In this document: piece after piece, positions 48,458 to 58,432 of the stretch
Layout: every line of letters begins with the position of its first letter
Numbering within the stretch: position 1 is the stretch's first letter
Assembly (NCBI RefSeq): GCF_000184345.1
Contig: NC_017583.1
Span: 62,001-126,000 of the forward strand
From: Spirochaeta thermophila DSM 6578
Lineage (GTDB): Bacteria > Spirochaetota > Spirochaetia > Winmispirales > Winmispiraceae
Direction: 5' to 3'
DNA length: 64,000 bases
Translations under genes and position numbers: made by a program
Notes under the pieces: generated by a model
Told to the model about the DNA's origin: nothing
The model's database searches: none
The model's input: only the letters and a program-made list of their open reading frames with translations

Positions 48458-49558
48458 GTGTCAGAGGGACGCATAATGGTGGTGGAGGACGATATCCTCA
48501 CGCTCTCGTTCCTCGTGAAGCTCTTCGAGCGGCGGGGGTTCGAGGTGGAAGGGGTGCCTTCGGGGGGAGAGGCGGTCCGTCGGGTGGAGGAACTCGGGGA
48601 GTTCGATCTCGTGCTCCTCGATATCGTGATGCCGGGCTTGAGCGGGGTGGAGGTGTGCGAGCTCATCAGGGAGCGGTATCCCATGTTCAGGTTACCCGTT
48701 CTCTTCCTCACGGCCCTGGCTCAGCCGTCCGAGGTGGCACGGGCCCTCGAGGCCGGCGGGAACGACTACATCGTGAAACCGCCGCAGGAGGACGAGCTCT
48801 TCGCCCGGGTGCGGAACCTCATCCGGCTCAAACGGGCGGTGGAGGAGAACGAAGAACTCCAGGAGCTCCTGAGACTCAAGGAACGGCTCTTCAACCTGGT
48901 GGCTCACGACGTGAAGGTTCCCGCCTCGAGCATCCTCCAGGCGGCAGCCCTGCTCAGGGAAGGGGTTCCGGCGGGGCTGGAGCGGTATCTCTCGGGGATA
49001 GAGGAGGCGGCGGGTCGGATCCTGGGTCTGGTGAAGGGGTTTCTGGGGTATGCGCGGGTGCGGCGTCTCGTGGATCTGGAGAGAGGAGCGCCGGTGGACC
49101 TTTCGGTGCTCCTCCTCCAGGTGGTCCAGCGATGGAAGGATCGGGCGAGGGCGAAGGGGGTGGGCGTGGCCTATGGGTTCGACCGGGGGCGCCCCTGGAC
49201 GGTGCGGGGCGACCCCCTGCTCCTCGAGGAGCTCATGGACAACCTGGTGGGCAACGCGGTGAAGTACACGTATCCCGACACCCTGGTGCGGGTGATGCTG
49301 GAGGAGCGGGACGGCAGGGTGCGATTCGCGGTGGCCGACGAGGGGCCGGGGGTGAAGGAGACCGACAGGGAGCGGATATTCCAGGAGTTCGTGTCGCTCT
49401 CGAGGGAGGGAGGAATGGGGCTCGGGCTCGCGCTGGTGCGGGAGGTGGCACGGCTGCACGGGGCGAGGGTGGGGGTGGAGGATGCGGAGGGGGGTGGGGC
49501 GGTCTTCTGGGTGGAGTTCGAAGGGACGGTTGAGCGGGACCGAGAGGATGGGCTATGA
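48458..49558 (+). CDS. Response regulator-histidine kinase hybrid (REC-HisKA-HATPase)
   Basis: 366 residues, no membrane segment. An N-terminal receiver (MVVEDD, phospho-acceptor Asp55 in LLDIVMPG, Lys in IVKPP) is fused to a kinase: His150 in LVAHDVKVPASS, N-box ELMDNLVGNAVKY, G1 VADEGPGV, G2 GGMGLGLAL. A receiver placed before the kinase suggests phosphorelay-controlled kinase activity in the cytoplasm. The start GTG follows AAGGAG; a TATACT (48431-48436) is a likely -10. The next gene starts 21 bp after the stop. Confidence 0.92.
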   Translation: MSEGRIMVVEDDILTLSFLVKLFERRGFEVEGVPSGGEAVRRVEELGEFDLVLLDIVMPGLSGVEVCELIRERYPMFRLPVLFLTALAQPSEVARALEAGGNDYIVKPPQEDELFARVRNLIRLKRAVEENEELQELLRLKERLFNLVAHDVKVPASSILQAAALLREGVPAGLERYLSGIEEAAGRILGLVKGFLGYARVRRLVDLERGAPVDLSVLLLQVVQRWKDRARAKGVGVAYGFDRGRPWTVRGDPLLLEELMDNLVGNAVKYTYPDTLVRVMLEERDGRVRFAVADEGPGVKETDRERIFQEFVSLSREGGMGLGLALVREVARLHGARVGVEDAEGGGAVFWVEFEGTVERDREDGL

Positions 49559-51329: not shown

Positions 51330-53519
51330 ATGCTGCAAGTAGGGCTGCTCGTTGCCGGTATCGTGGTTGGAGGGGGGATGGCCTTCTTCCTGCTCAAGGG
51401 GAGGATGGGGAAAGGGGTAGGGAACACGATGCGTCTTCTCTCGGTGGTGGAGGATGCCCTGGAGGAGATCTCTCAGGGGAACCTCGAGACATCGATCCGA
51501 CTGTCGAGGGACGGAAATCTCAAGGCCACGCCCGGGCCTCTCAGGCCGATCCAGACCCGCCTCTTCAGGGTGGTCCGGGAGGTCAACAGGATCACCGGAG
51601 AGCCGCTCCACCGGGTCTTCTATGTGGGGAGCGATCTGTTCCTGGAGGGTATTACCTGCGCAGAGGACATCGGCGGCAGACTCGGCGGGAGAGGCAAGGT
51701 GGCCCTCTTCGCCCGTTCTCCCCGCCATGTGGGAAACATGCTCAGGGTCCAGGGGTTCCGGAACATCTCGGGCCTGAGGTTCCCCGATCTCGAGATCCTC
51801 GGTCCGTTCTTCACCGGAGGTACGGTGGAGGATGCCGTGAGGTCGGTTCGGGAGGTGCTTCGCGCTCATCCCGACGTGGCGGCCGTCTATTGCGCAGACG
51901 AGACGTCGCCCGAGGGTGTGTGCAGGGCCGTGAAGGAGTCGGGGAGGAAGGATCTCTATCTGGTGGTACACGAACTCCGGGATGCCCTCATCCCCTATTT
52001 CGAAGACGGGACCCTCGACGTGGCCATGGACCAGGATCTCTTCTTCCAGGGCTACAATACGGCGGTGCACCTCTTCAACTACGTGGTCCATTCCTGGAGG
52101 CCCGCCTCTTCGCACATCCCCACCACGGTGGACCGGGTGACGAAGGAGAACTTCAGAGACTTCTGGGAACCCGGCAAGGGGGTGAGGATCTCAAAGGAAC
52201 GTCTCGCACGGAGGGCCGAGCCCCTGGGGCCGTCGGACAGACCGGTGAAAATCCTGTTCATAGGAGACGAGCGGTACGAGGTCTTCGAGCAGATCAAACA
52301 GGGGGTCTCCCAGGTGGCCGGGGTCCTCTCCGGTTACAACGCAGAGGTGGAGTGGGCGTGTCCTCCCGCCCACCGGGTGAGGGGAGGGAAGATGCTCTCC
52401 GCATACGAACTCATCCCCTACATCAAGGAAAAGATCGCCGAGACCTCTCCCGACGCCCTCGCGGTCACCGTGAAGGACCGCAGGATCTTTCCCTTCCTCA
52501 ACCACCTGGCGCATGAGGGGCTCCCCATCGCCACGTACAACACCGAGCCCCTCACGGTTCGAGGACTGCTCTACGGTATCTCCGAGACCGCACAGGATCT
52601 CTTCGGTCTCAGCACGGTGCTCGCCCAGGGAACGGAGGAGTCGGATCTCGCCATGAGGGAGATCCAGAGCGCCATCACCGAGGTCGCCGAGAGCGTGGAG
52701 TCGCAGCAATCCACGGTGCAGAAGGGTGCCGAGGCGGTCTCGCACCTCATGGGGTCCATCCAGCGTGTGAGGGAGGGCGTGGACAGACAGGTGGAGGCGG
52801 TGGATGCCTCCAGCGCCCTGCGCGGGGACCTGCGGGATGCGGTGCGCACCCTCGGCCACCAGGTGGACAGACTCACCCACGTGCGGGAGAAGATGAGCGA
52901 AGTGGTGGGGAGGATGGAGGAACTGGGCGGGTTCTCGCAGACCATAGGAGAGGTGGTGGCTTCCATAGAGAACGTGGCGGTGCGTACGAACCTGCTCGCC
53001 CTCAATGCAGCCATCGAGGCCGCACATGCGGGGGAAGCGGGGAAGGGCTTCGCCGTGGTGGCGGAAGAGGTGAGAAAACTCGCCCAGCAGTCGGGGGTGG
53101 AGAGTTCAAGGATCGCGCAGATCGTTGCCCAGATACAGGAGCAGGTGGGCCTCACCGCAGCCTCCATGGAGGAACTCTCCGGCGAGATACAGGAGCAGAT
53201 GGGGAGCCTCTCGTCGCTCATGGAGAGCTTTCAGGTCCTCATCGGGAAGTTCCTCGATTCGGTGGAGCGGGTCTCCGAAGTGATAGAGGAGAACAAACGG
53301 CAGGCCGACCTCATGGATCGGGACGCCCAACAGGTGAACACCATGATAGACGAGGTGGTGGCGGTGAGCGAGCAGAACCGGGCCGCCACGGAGGAGGTCT
53401 CGGCCGCCATCCGGGAGCTCTTCGCCCAGATGGGGAGTATCCGGGACATGGCCCGTCAGCTCGCCGGTACGGCGCAAGCTCTGAAGGGTGCCATCGTCCA
53501 GTTCATGTCCTGGAGGTAG
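51330..53519 (+). CDS. Chemotaxis-type receptor with permuted sugar-binding-protein sensor on the cytoplasmic side
   Basis: 729 residues. One N-terminal membrane helix (3-22) followed by positive residues, then a helical linker (30-90). Residues about 94-279 ([12 protein letters not shown] ... [10 protein letters not shown] ... [17 protein letters not shown] ... [22 protein letters not shown] ... DRVTKENF) match the second half of a type-I sugar-binding protein. Residues 306-409 ([21 protein letters not shown] ... [11 protein letters not shown] ... [12 protein letters not shown]) match the first half, so the order is reversed. The MCP signalling domain follows ([34 protein letters not shown]) with no second membrane helix, so sensor and signalling parts lie on the same side. 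Start fixed by AAGGAGAAGGG. Adenylate cyclase gene 13 bp downstream. Confidence 0.85.
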
Positions 53520-53532
53520 GAGTGAGGTTCGC

Positions 53533-55194
53533 GTGAGCATACGGATAAAGGTGGTGCTCGTCATCATCCCCATCCTCGTGCTTTCGCTCTTGATGGCGGG
53601 GCTCTCTTCATACTTCTTCGCTACATCCGGTATCACCAGGATCGCGCGGGAGTTCCTCGGCTTCAAGGCCGAGGAGCTGGAGAAGTACATGCTCACACAG
53701 TGGCAGGTGCTTGTGGAGAGCGGACTCTCCGACAGGCCCGAGATGCGGTCTGCCACGCAGGAGGGGATGGCCTCGTTCGCCGCCACCCTCATAAGGAGCA
53801 CCACTGAGCTCATCCTCGCCGTCGACGGAGAGGGTGCGCTCGCCTTCTCCACTTCTCCGGTGGAGCTGGCTCCGGAAGACTGGGGGAAGATACGGGAGGT
53901 CTTCGAGGCCGGGAGGGCGGAAGGGTTCTTCACCCTCAGGCTGGGGGATACGGAACGCGTGGGAAGGGGATTCTTCTTCGAACCCTTTTCCTGGTATGTG
54001 GTCCTCACCGAGGCGCGGACTACCTTCTACCAGGATGTGGAGAAGATCACCACCCAGACGATCTACATCGTGGCGGGAAGTATCCTGTTCGCCTCGCTCC
54101 TCGTGTTCTTCTTCGTAGGGTATCTCCTGCGCCCCCTGTCCCGTGTGGTCTCCACCATGCAGGGGATCATCGCTTCCACCGATCTCTCCCAGCGGGTGCC
54201 GGTGGAATACCACGACGAGATAGGTGAGCTCTCACACACGTTCAACTTGATGGTGGAGGGACTCGATCGGGCCTATACGAGCATCAAGAACTATGCCATG
54301 GATGCGGTGGTCGCCAGACGCAACGAGATGAAGATTCGAAACATCTTCCAGAAGTACGTACCGCAGGACATCATCGATCAGTTCTTCGAACATCCCGAAT
54401 CCATGCTGGTGGGCGACAACCGGGTGCTCGCGGTGCTCTTTTCCGATATCAGGAGCTTCACCACCATCTCCGAGGGTATGCCCCCCGACGAGCTGGTCGA
54501 GGCCCTCAACCGCTACTTTGCGCTCATGGTGGACATCATCACCGCCCGCAACGGGATCGTGGACAAGTATATAGGCGATGCGATCATGGCCTTCTTCGGT
54601 GCCCCGGTGAAGCGGCCGGACGACGGATACAACGCCGTGCTGGCTGCGATAGAGATGACGGAAAAGGTGAAGGAGTTCAATCAGAGGCAGGTCGAGGAGG
54701 GGAAGCCCGAGTTCCGGATAGGGGTGGGTATCAACTACGGCCTCGTCACCGTGGGCAACATAGGGTGTGAGAAGAAGATGGACTACACGGTGATCGGGGA
54801 TATGGTGAACCTCGCCTCCCGCCTGGAAGGACTCACGAAGTACTATCATCAGGAGATCGTCATCTCGGAGAGTCTTTTCCGGAAGGTGGAGGGGAAGCTC
54901 CCGGTGAGGCTCCTCGACACCGTGGCGGTGAAGGGGAAGCACCGGGGGGTGCGCATCTACACGGTGAAGCGTGAGCTCTCACCACGGCAGGGGGAGATCT
55001 GGAAGCTGCACAACGAGGGGATGGAGCTCTACTATACCCGAAGGTTCGACGAGGCCGCGGTGCTCTTCCAGCGGATCCTCGAGCTCGATCCTCAGGACTA
55101 TCCCGCGCAGATGCTCTCCAAGCGGTGCAGGCTCTATGTCGTGGAACCGCCTCCTCCCGACTGGGACGGGGTGGAGAAGATGCTGGTGAAGTGA
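53533..55194 (+). CDS. Membrane class III adenylate cyclase with HAMP and C-terminal TPR-like region
   Basis: 553 residues. Two membrane helices (about 6-30 and 178-200) bracket a small periplasmic sensor; a HAMP segment follows (RPLSRVVSTMQGIIASTDLSQRV). Cyclase catalytic domain at about 285-480: FSDIRSFTTISEGM and KYIGDAIMAFFG hold the two metal Asp residues and the Lys of the adenine pocket; DYTVIGDMVNLASRLE holds the Asp and the Asn/Arg of the transition state. The Lys/Asp pair favours ATP over GTP. The C-terminal end (HNEGMELYYTRRFDEAAVLFQRIL) is a TPR-like helix pair. GTG start, 13 bp after the receptor stop; likely one operon. Confidence 0.93.
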   Translation: MSIRIKVVLVIIPILVLSLLMAGLSSYFFATSGITRIAREFLGFKAEELEKYMLTQWQVLVESGLSDRPEMRSATQEGMASFAATLIRSTTELILAVDGEGALAFSTSPVELAPEDWGKIREVFEAGRAEGFFTLRLGDTERVGRGFFFEPFSWYVVLTEARTTFYQDVEKITTQTIYIVAGSILFASLLVFFFVGYLLRPLSRVVSTMQGIIASTDLSQRVPVEYHDEIGELSHTFNLMVEGLDRAYTSIKNYAMDAVVARRNEMKIRNIFQKYVPQDIIDQFFEHPESMLVGDNRVLAVLFSDIRSFTTISEGMPPDELVEALNRYFALMVDIITARNGIVDKYIGDAIMAFFGAPVKRPDDGYNAVLAAIEMTEKVKEFNQRQVEEGKPEFRIGVGINYGLVTVGNIGCEKKMDYTVIGDMVNLASRLEGLTKYYHQEIVISESLFRKVEGKLPVRLLDTVAVKGKHRGVRIYTVKRELSPRQGEIWKLHNEGMELYYTRRFDEAAVLFQRILELDPQDYPAQMLSKRCRLYVVEPPPPDWDGVEKMLVK

Positions 55195-55219
55195 AAAATC
55201 CGCGAGGACGTACTATACT
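55191..55219 (+). promoter_or_regulatory. Promoter of the PEGA/lipoprotein operon, apparently leaderless
   Basis: GTGAAA (55191-55196, overlapping the cyclase stop), 17-bp spacer, TATACT (55214-55219). The GTG start at 55225 follows 5 nt later and an ATG at 55228 follows 8 nt later; no ribosome site. Confidence 0.5.
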
Positions 55220-55224
55220 TGAGT

Positions 55225-56319
55225 GTGATGGACATGCGTAAGGCCCTGCCGACGATAGTGGGGATGCTCTGGGGCGTGGCCGTCCTCTCCGCCGTGCCCC
55301 AGGTCAGGCTCGAAGACCCCGTGGTGGAGGATCTGGATTTATCCCCCGAACTCGTGGTGAAGGCCCTCGTCGCTTCGTTGGAGGCGAGAGAGGTGCTGGT
55401 GCAGGATGATGCGGGCTACGTGCTCACCACCAGGATGTGGGGCGGCGGGAGACGGGGCGTGGTCTCGCTCCGGCTCTACGTGGAAAAAGGAGAGACGAGG
55501 AGTCTCGTGGCGGCCGTGGTGGCCTCCTTCCCTCTCAACCTCTCCTTCTACGCCGAGGTGGACAGGGCCGTGGAGGACCTTCTGTCCCGGTGGCTGAGCC
55601 GGTTCCCGGAGGTGGCTGCCCCTGAGGATGCGGTCTTTCCGGTGGAGGTGAGGGGGCCGGACGAGGGAGCGGTGGTGAAGGTAGGGGATGTGGTGCTCGG
55701 CACCATCGAGGAGGGGGTGCTCGTGGGGGATCCGTTCAGGGTGGTGCTGGGAAGCAGGGTGAAGCTCACCGTGGAGAAGGAGGGCTACTTCCCGAGGGAT
55801 GTGGAGGTGGTGATCGAGGAGAGTCCCGTGGTGGTGGAGCTTCCGCCCCTTCCCAGACAACATCGCTTCGAGGTGGGGGTCTTCAGCACGCTTGGCCAAC
55901 TCAAGGGGGCGGGGGTGGAGGGACGATGGTACGCCCTGCCGGATCGGGTCTTCGCAGGGCTCAGGGACTACGTCTACGCCGAGGGGGGCGGCCGGTGGTG
56001 GATGCCTGAGGTGGTGGTTCGCAACCAGAGTGAGTTAGTAGTAGGGGCGTACCTCGTGGGAGGGGTGAGCTCGACCGTGCGGCTGTGGATGGAGAGTGGT
56101 ATCGGAGGGTACCTCTCGTTCGTGGAGGGCGTGCCGTTCGATCTCTACTACCACCTCATCGGGTTGGGGGTGGAGTGGGTGGTGGTGCCCGGGTGGACCC
56201 TGTATGCACGCACCGGGTACGACTATGCCGCGGGTACCGGTCTCCTCCCTCAGGGCTCGATCTCCCTGTATCCAGAGGGAGGACCCGCACTTTCATGTGG
56301 AGTGGGATACCGATGGTAG
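55225..56319 (+). CDS. PEGA-domain protein with C-terminal outer-membrane beta-barrel
   Basis: About 364 residues with a signal peptide (KALPTIVGMLWGVAVLSA). Residues about 20-130 are a TolB-N/CsgG-like alpha-beta region; about 135-210 a PEGA domain (FPVEVRGPDEGAVVKVGDVVLG, KLTVEKEGYFPRDVEVVIEES). The last 155 residues alternate short beta strands (VEVGVFSTLGQLKG, YLSFVEGVPFDLYYHLIG, LYARTGYDYAAG) and end in CGVGYRW, an aromatic C terminus typical of outer-membrane barrels. The start is GTG 55225 or ATG 55228. First of four genes arranged as two barrel-lipoprotein pairs. Confidence 0.72.
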   Translation: MMDMRKALPTIVGMLWGVAVLSAVPQVRLEDPVVEDLDLSPELVVKALVASLEAREVLVQDDAGYVLTTRMWGGGRRGVVSLRLYVEKGETRSLVAAVVASFPLNLSFYAEVDRAVEDLLSRWLSRFPEVAAPEDAVFPVEVRGPDEGAVVKVGDVVLGTIEEGVLVGDPFRVVLGSRVKLTVEKEGYFPRDVEVVIEESPVVVELPPLPRQHRFEVGVFSTLGQLKGAGVEGRWYALPDRVFAGLRDYVYAEGGGRWWMPEVVVRNQSELVVGAYLVGGVSSTVRLWMESGIGGYLSFVEGVPFDLYYHLIGLGVEWVVVPGWTLYARTGYDYAAGTGLLPQGSISLYPEGGPALSCGVGYRW

Positions 56320-57260
56320 GAATTGGACGTTCGTCTATGGTATGGGGACTCCTGGTCTCTTTCCTGCTCGTGACGGGGTGTTCGCTCTTCGAGCTTTCCC
56401 GTTTTCCGTTCTACGACCGGTGGGCCGAGGAGAGCACAGACCTCGGGGAGTATCTGGAAGACTTTGGTGCCACTCCGTTCTATGAACACTACGAGGCGGT
56501 CTTCGCGGTATCGGACGGGCCCTCTTCGAGGTATGTCGTGTTCGGGATACGGGAGAAGAATGGGATGAGGGGGAGACTCTTCGTGATGGACGGAGAGCTT
56601 GGCATAAAACGTGTCCTGGAGACCGAGGACTTCCAGGAGCCCGAGAGGCTCTACGACACGCCTTTCGTGGATGCCTCGAACAAGGTGGTGTTCGGGGATT
56701 ACTGGATCGATCCCGAGGGGAGCGGGGATCCCAAGCTGATCGAGGGAGGGAGGGGGTTCTGGGGGGAAGAGGGGGGAAGCCTCTACAACTACAGGCTGTG
56801 GGGGGACGAGGCCTCTCTCAACATAGAGGTAAGGGATCGCAACTGGGAGACTCTTACCACGTACACCCTGCCGTTCGAGTGGGACGTACGAGACGGATGG
56901 AGGGTGAAGGATCACGTGGTCTTGGAGTGCGGGAAAGAAGGTGCGCGCCGTTTCCTCTTACTGCCGTTCGATTCGTATCAATCATGGTCCACCCCTCTGT
57001 TCGACCACTATCCATGGTTTCCCCTTCCCTTCGAAAACTACGACAGCGTGGTCTCGGTGACCGAGGAGGGTATCCTCGTCTCGAAGTGGGAGGAGGACGT
57101 GCGCATCCACGAGCGGTACAACCTTGAAGGTGAGTTCGTGGACTCTACCGAGATGCCGTGGGACTACGAGGTGTTCTGGGCCTATGCCCCTGCGGGGGAT
57201 GCGCTCTACGTCTTCGATCCCGTGGTCGAGAAGGTCTTCCGGGGGCCGGTGTGGTGGTGA
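56313..57260 (+). CDS. Lipoprotein of unknown function (first of a pair)
   Basis: 315 residues from ATG 56313, which overlaps the previous gene by 7 bp; ATGs at 56295 and 56337 are alternatives. Lipobox LVTGC. The mature part is beta-rich with several Trp/Tyr motifs (FPFYDRWAEEST, YVVFGIREKNGMRG, DYWIDPEGSGD, LYVFDPVVEKVF) and may be a small propeller. It shares length, position and ending style (YVFDP... / LVYDP...) with the lipoprotein at 58426. No named domain. Confidence 0.7.
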   Translation: MVGIGRSSMVWGLLVSFLLVTGCSLFELSRFPFYDRWAEESTDLGEYLEDFGATPFYEHYEAVFAVSDGPSSRYVVFGIREKNGMRGRLFVMDGELGIKRVLETEDFQEPERLYDTPFVDASNKVVFGDYWIDPEGSGDPKLIEGGRGFWGEEGGSLYNYRLWGDEASLNIEVRDRNWETLTTYTLPFEWDVRDGWRVKDHVVLECGKEGARRFLLLPFDSYQSWSTPLFDHYPWFPLPFENYDSVVSVTEEGILVSKWEEDVRIHERYNLEGEFVDSTEMPWDYEVFWAYAPAGDALYVFDPVVEKVFRGPVWW

Positions 57261-58432
57261 GAAGCAGGCTTCGTCGGCTGGGTGCCGTGGCTCTCTTTTT
57301 CGTCCTGGGGAGCGGCATGTGGGCGCTGACGGTGCAGGTGGCCGTTTACATGGATCCTGAAGGGCACGAAGCCGCCATCTGGTATGAAGAGACACTCGCG
57401 CTTCTCACCTCCTACTCGTGGGTGGTGGTTGAGGAGGTCGGTTCTGTTCCTCCCGACTGGCGTGACGATGCGAAGCGACGGGGCGCCGCGGCGGCGCTCC
57501 TCATCACCGCGGAGGGTGGAGCCCTCCGGTACCGCGCCTACCGGTTCGACACAGAGGAGGAAGTGTTCGACTTTCGAGTGGATACGGCCGTTTCTTCGCC
57601 TCTGGTGGTGAAGGCCCGACTGTCTGCCCTCAAGGAAGCCCTGGAGAGGTTCGATGCCCGGTTCAGGGGTATGCGTGATCTGGCCACAAAGGGTGAGGGG
57701 AGACTCGTCGTGGAGGCGGTGCCGGGGACGCTCCTCGAGGGGATCTTCACCGATCCGGTGGAGGTGGGGGAGGAGGGGGTGATACGGTTCAGGTTGCCTG
57801 CTCCTTCCACCTACGTGGTGAGGGGGACGCGGGAGGGCTACACCACCGAGGAGATGGTGGCCGTGCTGCGGGTGGGGGAGGAGACGAAGGTACGGCTCCC
57901 GCAGGAGCGGGTCGTGGGGTTTGTCACCGGCGTGAACCTCCAGTACTTCCAGTTCCCCGGGTTCTCGGTCATGTACGAGGTGGTCCCCGACTGGTTCTCG
58001 GCGGGAGGGGGGGTGGACTGGTACGGCGCGGGGCTCTACCTCCCCGAGCGTCCGTGGGAGAGTGACCGGCAGGCGGGCTTCGTCTCCTTTGCCCTTATCG
58101 AGCCCTGGGTCGGCCTGCGGACCACCTTCATTCGATGGAGGAGCGGGATCTCCCTTTTCGGTACCATGCGCGTGTTCCTCCGGGTTGTGTACCCCGAGGG
58201 GCAGTGGGCGATCGATCCGGTGGCTCCGGGCGGTGTGGTCCTCGGAAGCGGGATCAGGTTGCCGCTTTCCCGAAGGTGGGCGATGGTGGTGGAAGGGGGT
58301 CTCACCGCCTACATGACGAAGAATCGACTGTTGTTCTACGAGATGTTGGGGGAAGAGGCGGAACGGGCGGAGGACATCGCCAGGAGTATCTTCCGGCCGG
58401 GGATGAAGGCAGGAGTGGAGGTGACATGGTGA
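57257..58432 (+). CDS. Second PEGA-like protein with C-terminal beta-barrel
   Basis: 391 residues from the GTG that overlaps the previous stop (GTGA). Signal peptide (RLGAVALFFVLGSGMWA). Residues about 20-130 form an alpha-beta region (LTVQVAVYMDPEGHEAAIWYEETL..., AALLITAEGGALRYRAY); about 140-210 a PEGA-like domain (GRLVVEAVPGTLLEGIF, YVVRGTREGYTTEEMVAVL). Then a barrel-like series (VTGVNLQYFQFPGFSVMYEV, GGGVDWYGAGLYLPER) ending GVEVTW. Same architecture as the protein at 55225, though weakly similar, so an old duplication is likely. Confidence 0.7.
   Translation: MRSRLRRLGAVALFFVLGSGMWALTVQVAVYMDPEGHEAAIWYEETLALLTSYSWVVVEEVGSVPPDWRDDAKRRGAAAALLITAEGGALRYRAYRFDTEEEVFDFRVDTAVSSPLVVKARLSALKEALERFDARFRGMRDLATKGEGRLVVEAVPGTLLEGIFTDPVEVGEEGVIRFRLPAPSTYVVRGTREGYTTEEMVAVLRVGEETKVRLPQERVVGFVTGVNLQYFQFPGFSVMYEVVPDWFSAGGGVDWYGAGLYLPERPWESDRQAGFVSFALIEPWVGLRTTFIRWRSGISLFGTMRVFLRVVYPEGQWAIDPVAPGGVVLGSGIRLPLSRRWAMVVEGGLTAYMTKNRLLFYEMLGEEAERAEDIARSIFRPGMKAGVEVTW

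Follow-up and report, generated by a model that had tools for sequence, protein, structure and literature searches.

The sensor of a chemoreceptor encoded in the window, i.e., the whole 64,000-nucleotide stretch of Spirochaeta thermophila DSM 6578 analyzed here (NC_017583.1, positions 62,001 to 126,000), is a circularly permuted type-I periplasmic binding protein (PBP) module whose chain was cut in the loop that separates N-lobe strands 4 and 5. We consider it probable that this membrane-anchored chemoreceptor uses the permuted module to detect a small molecule in the cytoplasm, with a sugar or sugar-like metabolite as the likeliest candidate. Neither permuted type-I binding proteins nor chemoreceptors with a cytoplasmic sensor are new in themselves; the receptor offers a testable case of how a permutation can connect a sensor of two lobes to a helical output, and suggests that chemotaxis may follow internal sugar or metabolite levels, above all in spirochaetes.

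Receptor layout and permuted order of the binding-protein halves

The receptor gene (51330..53519, + strand, as are all receptor features given below) starts at an ATG at 51330 preceded by the RBS-like sequence AAGGAGAAGGG, ends with a stop codon at 53517-53519, and encodes 729 amino acids arranged as membrane helix, HAMP-like region, permuted PBP module and MCP signalling domain. The single N-terminal membrane helix (residues 4-22; 51339..51395) was recognized by hydropathy, is followed by a K/R-rich stretch assigned to the inside, and falls within a helix spanning residues 2-48 in the full-length model. Next to it, residues 24-91 (51399..51602) form a HAMP-like linker; Pfam HAMP gave no match here, and a HAMP assignment by Pfam was dropped as unproven. 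Profile comparison nonetheless indicated a HAMP-like identity, to which we give moderate confidence: the weak PDB matches of the family profile were mostly HAMP structures, and hhalign against the HAMP regions of this genome gave a probability of 89% (E 2.5e-6). The PBP second half, placed first (residues 92-282; 51603..52175), comprises N-lobe strand 5, the whole C-lobe and the C-terminal crossover strand 6, and a linker of ~20 residues (283-302; 52176..52235), with 15-23 residues in the nine members measured, joins what were originally the C and N termini of the PBP. The PBP first half, placed second (residues 303-409; 52236..52556), contains N-lobe strands 1-4, located in the model at residues 306-311, 338-343, 376-379 and 400-403. 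The MCP signalling helices with their conserved hairpin tip occupy the remainder (52557..53504), as one helix at 410-725 in the model, with MCPsignal matched at residues 519-679 (PF00015, E 4.5e-32); this domain was found by Pfam in all 20 full-length members of the family, and its hairpin-tip residues are invariant or near-invariant in the family alignment.

Evidence for the permuted order was obtained from Pfam, from profile searches against solved structures and from rejoined sequences. Residues 95-247 correspond to positions 95-249 of the 258 in Peripla_BP_4 (E 2e-20), and since the match begins at profile position 95, the first half of the profile is absent in front of residue 95. Overall, residues 92-282 correspond to PBP positions ~95 to the C terminus, and residues 303-409, by family profile, to positions 1 to ~93. 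When searched alone, residues 303-415 of the window protein gave no Pfam match, its own N-half being too divergent to be recognized singly, whereas the equivalent region of four relatives matched Peripla_BP_4 1-93 (E 2.5e-8, 2e-6, 5.9e-6 and 9.2e-6). Rejoining the halves in canonical order, a check proposed in the first-pass annotation, produced a single continuous Pfam match in 4/4 relatives, with 99-121 bits (in L012, 121 bits across Peripla_BP_4 1-254); for the window protein, the score rose from 73.6 to 83.0 bits and the profile span was extended from 95-249 to 53-249. A caution follows for annotation: in the window protein, Pfam displays just one of the two sensor halves.

Family profiles led to the same arrangement. 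The second-half profile (residues 303-409 type), built from 20 sequences, matched residues 2-91 of solved glucose-binding proteins, including that of T. maritima, and of other sugar PBPs (E 7e-9). With the profile of the first half (residues 92-282 type), the match in these proteins was to residues 97-293 (E 2e-31). In ordinary PBPs of the phylum, the second-half profile scored up to 90 bits and always N-terminal to the other half, so that the two profiles match in tandem, a few residues apart, in the order opposite to that of the receptor. Fifty column-shuffled versions of the second-half profile reached a maximum of 6.3 bits, compared with up to 90 bits for the real one, ruling out chance as the origin of this similarity. 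Furthermore, when the receptor is aligned with canonical PBPs, the canonical C-terminal end VTKxN...W is followed by the ~20 linker residues and then by the canonical N-terminal strand. Both Peripla_BP_4 halves are thus present in the receptor, with the canonical order of N-half before C-half reversed in all 20 full-length members. The first-pass annotation had read residues 94-279 as the second half of a PBP and 306-409 as the first, in reversed order, and this reading is borne out by Pfam, the PDB profiles, the shuffled controls, the 20 members, the tree and the AlphaFold2 model.

Canonical CUT2-type sugar PBPs (Peripla_BP_4: T. maritima 2h3h, AraP 6sw4, RbsB) and the ABC-operon PBPs of spirochaetes such as L034 resemble the receptor in having the two halves, the main pocket positions and the VTKxN...W motif at the C-terminal end; they differ in having the N-half before the C-half, in being exported and in carrying no signalling domain.

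Predicted fold and comparison with TpMglB-2

AlphaFold2 modelling of residues 28-470 with 20 sequences gave a pLDDT of 86 and a pTM of 0.79, with most of the sensor at pLDDT 90-97. The strand series consisted of N-lobe strand 5, the C-lobe, strand 6, strands 1-4 and one long helix, and was the same in the full-length model; this is the order expected if the chain was cut after N-lobe strand 4 and before strand 5. The model is thus a confident PBP-like module. In a Foldseek search with it, in line with the structural check proposed earlier for this gene, most of the leading canonical PBPs fitted well over ~180-220 columns only, and some were extended further with a poor fit, while structures of the permuted Treponema protein TpMglB-2 aligned in sequence order over 386-393 columns (target TM 0.47-0.51), being the best order-preserving match to the window module. 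Residues 92-282 and 303-409 are accordingly modelled as closing into one two-lobed unit, a prediction resting on strand order, pLDDT/pTM and Foldseek, with an AlphaFold2 input of just 20 sequences.

An arrangement in which the halves pair crosswise between the two subunits of an MCP dimer, so that each dimer would have two pockets formed where its subunits meet, is improbable. MCPs are dimeric, the linker of 15-23 residues makes such an exchange geometrically possible, and the AlphaFold2 prediction was that of a monomer; however, a single chain was folded confidently, and TpMglB-2, a glucose binder with a comparable permutation, is monomeric in solution (PMC4990184).

TpMglB-2 (Tp0684) of Treponema pallidum, described as a 'Type Ic' ligand-binding protein (PDB 5jx2, 6bgc and 6bgd), is a permuted type-I glucose-binding protein and a periplasmic lipoprotein, in which the cut lies between N-lobe strands 3 and 4 and three N-lobe strands follow the C-half (PMC4990184). 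Like the module of the window receptor, it represents a natural circular permutation of a spirochaete type-I sugar-binding protein with the C-lobe first and N-lobe strands last. Nevertheless, its cut is one strand earlier (3/4 instead of 4/5, the receptor having four N-lobe strands after the C-half), and it is a free lipoprotein of an ABC transporter, whereas the window module is cytoplasmic and fused to an output domain. TpMglB-2 was absent from the 60 best PDB matches of the C-half profile, among which canonical PBPs dominate, and its absence there makes a separate permutation probable. In the open-access literature searched, no permuted or PBP-type cytoplasmic chemoreceptor was found, TpMglB-2 being the permuted precedent. 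Natural PBP permutation was thus found there only for free TpMglB-2 proteins, and the receptor appears as an independent-looking case with another cut, in another compartment and wired into a receptor. Separately, in the sugar-binding structure PDB 5er3 chain A, the C-half profile (positions 64-188) matched residues 31-157 and the N-half profile residues 183-260, and by these matches it looks like another permuted PBP, cut differently.

Distribution and origin of the receptor family

The family counts 20 full-length members including the window protein, with 22-99% identity to the window protein and the same permuted order and MCP domain in all. Whole-genome searches recovered full-length members with open frames of 720-824 amino acids, ranging from the window's own genus and family through further families of the class to a second class of the phylum, and well separated in score from ordinary PBPs (at least 290 bits versus <160). 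A scan of genome contigs with the window protein as query found no relative, while a profile scan with a subset alignment added members in Spirochaetales metagenome-assembled genomes (MAGs) and in one Acidobacteria-labelled MAG. The latter (G595; L068, L099, L101, L103, L104) holds four full-length receptor copies, and as no other genome among the 297 of that phylum has any, transfer or misbinning is suggested. The family is small, mostly found in spirochaetes, and apparently undescribed. In a Treponema MAG (G596:C135; L069, L100, L102), the permuted module is split across two adjacent open frames, as a decayed gene or a sequencing frameshift.

For a tree, 13 canonical PBPs chosen by their similarity to the family were combined with 21 modules, one from each of the 20 full-length members and one from the Acidobacteria-labelled MAG. 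The permuted modules formed one side of a branch with 99/98 support, nested among these canonical PBPs, and their neighbors were PBPs of ABC-transporter operons (L034 type) with the TFNSE hinge motif in common. Since the permuted modules constitute one clade, a single permutation event is likely, and the simplest history suggested by these sequences would be one permutation of an L034-type ABC-operon PBP. The nearest canonical PBPs (L071, L073 and L074) lie in ABC-transporter operons beside a gene of 416-422 amino acids that by eye resembles UroD-like methyltransferases, with two-component genes nearby.

Cellular location, putative ligand and signalling

According to hydropathy, members of the family carry one N-terminal membrane helix or, in many cases, a hairpin of two; basic residues follow. 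Between the module and the MCP domain no membrane helix was detected in the 20 members, except for one isolated hydropathy peak (1.7, residue 412 of L061). As MCP domains have to contact CheA and CheW in the cytoplasm, and no membrane segment follows the N terminus, the topology predicted from sequence places the sensor module on the cytoplasmic side of the membrane. This agrees with the first-pass annotation, which had described one N-terminal helix with none between the module and the MCP domain, and had assigned both the ligand and the signalling domain to the cytoplasm; hydropathy, the basic residues and the two-helix hairpins of many members uphold both points. There is next to no chance that the module is instead exported and senses a periplasmic sugar as other PBPs do. 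Its ancestors would have been exported PBPs of ABC operons, but the sequence contradicts this, with no membrane helix from module to MCP domain (one hydropathy peak of 1.7 in 1/20), basic residues after the membrane segment, and hairpins with both ends inside. The export to periplasm or cell surface that is usual in Peripla_BP_4 proteins is accordingly not found in the receptor family.

Other membrane-anchored chemoreceptors, such as the PAS receptor Aer, also combine an MCP output with a sensor located in the cytoplasm; they employ PAS/GAF or similar domains, whereas the window receptor has a permuted two-lobed PBP between the HAMP-like region and the signalling helices. The type-I PBP fold is used in the cytoplasm for sugar sensing by LacI/GalR regulators, which differ in being unpermuted and in having a DNA-binding output.

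For the binding pocket, we mapped the pocket residues of RbsB onto the window protein. The map was F16 to F319, D89 to N404, R141 to R139, F214 to H214, D215 to E215 and Q235 to Q235 (RbsB to window protein), with conservation of F/W319 and R139 in 20/20 members, H214 in 18/20 and N404 in 16/20. Taken as a set, pocket positions were more conserved than other positions (permutation p = 0.008; C-half 0.02, N-half 0.08), while the equivalents of RbsB 13, 64, 103 and 132 ranked low. The pocket is contributed by both halves, which argues for their closing on each other, and its conservation favours real ligand binding, with sugar as the likeliest, putative, ligand class. Position 235 is C, K, D or E in some members; a single ligand common to all is therefore unlikely, and this variation suggests that members bind different ligands. 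It is quite unlikely that the module no longer binds a ligand and has become a rigid spacer or a docking platform for proteins: the low-ranking equivalents of RbsB 13, 64, 103 and 132 and the substitutions at 235 would fit such a role, but Arg139 and the aromatic residue 319 are kept in every member, His214 in nearly all, and the pocket set stands above the rest in conservation.

Sequence and model together show how the receptor is built. A whole PBP was cut open in the 4/5 loop of its N-lobe, the ~20-residue linker closed the gap between its former termini, and the opened ring was placed in the cytoplasm, with the membrane/HAMP-like input helix ahead of it and the signalling helices of the MCP behind. 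From this layout, a signalling mechanism can be proposed. Both new ends bear conserved motifs (ITxxPxxR at 88-95 and NxEPxxxR at 404-411), and because these ends are neighbors in the uncut protein, the HAMP-side helix and the signalling helix are expected to begin next to each other at the hinge of the lobes. Ligand-driven closure of the lobes may then twist or slide one of these helices relative to the other and change CheA activity, so that through the permutation the hinge would become a step in the signal path. We tentatively propose that the permutation might itself be the signalling device, the opening of a PBP at its hinge loop having put lobe closing in series with the receptor helices, in chemoreceptors steering by intracellular sugar-like metabolites; if true, these receptors would be a natural counterpart of engineered permuted-PBP biosensors. 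The family probably lets cells steer by internal rather than external molecules.

A class III adenylate/guanylate cyclase gene (53533..55194, + strand; PF00211 6e-24, PF00672 6e-10) starts with GTG at 53533, 13 bp downstream of the receptor stop, and encodes membrane segments, HAMP, cyclase and a TPR-like end; the genome has three more cyclases of this kind. The two genes are probably co-transcribed in the window genome, and a functional link between their products would be a guess. Both genes also stand together elsewhere in the window's genus and in a second genus of the same family (58% identity for the MCP, 73% for the cyclase), and no cyclase homologue was located by synteny around any of the more distant members searched. 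The 13 bp spacing noted in the first-pass annotation stands. Cyclase coupling was rejected as a feature of the whole receptor family, since among the members searched the pair occurs only within the window's taxonomic family. That receptor and cyclase work together as a unit to connect intracellular sugar with motility and cAMP is unlikely: the short gap and the retention of the pair in two genera speak for it, but they are set against the lack of a cyclase homologue near distant members and a cyclase with its own membrane-flanked sensor region and HAMP. Elsewhere in the window, a response-regulator receiver is fused ahead of a histidine kinase at 48458-49558, and three adjacent genes with no Pfam match occupy 55219-58432, those at 55219 and 57158 looking by eye like related secreted proteins, possibly PEGA-type.
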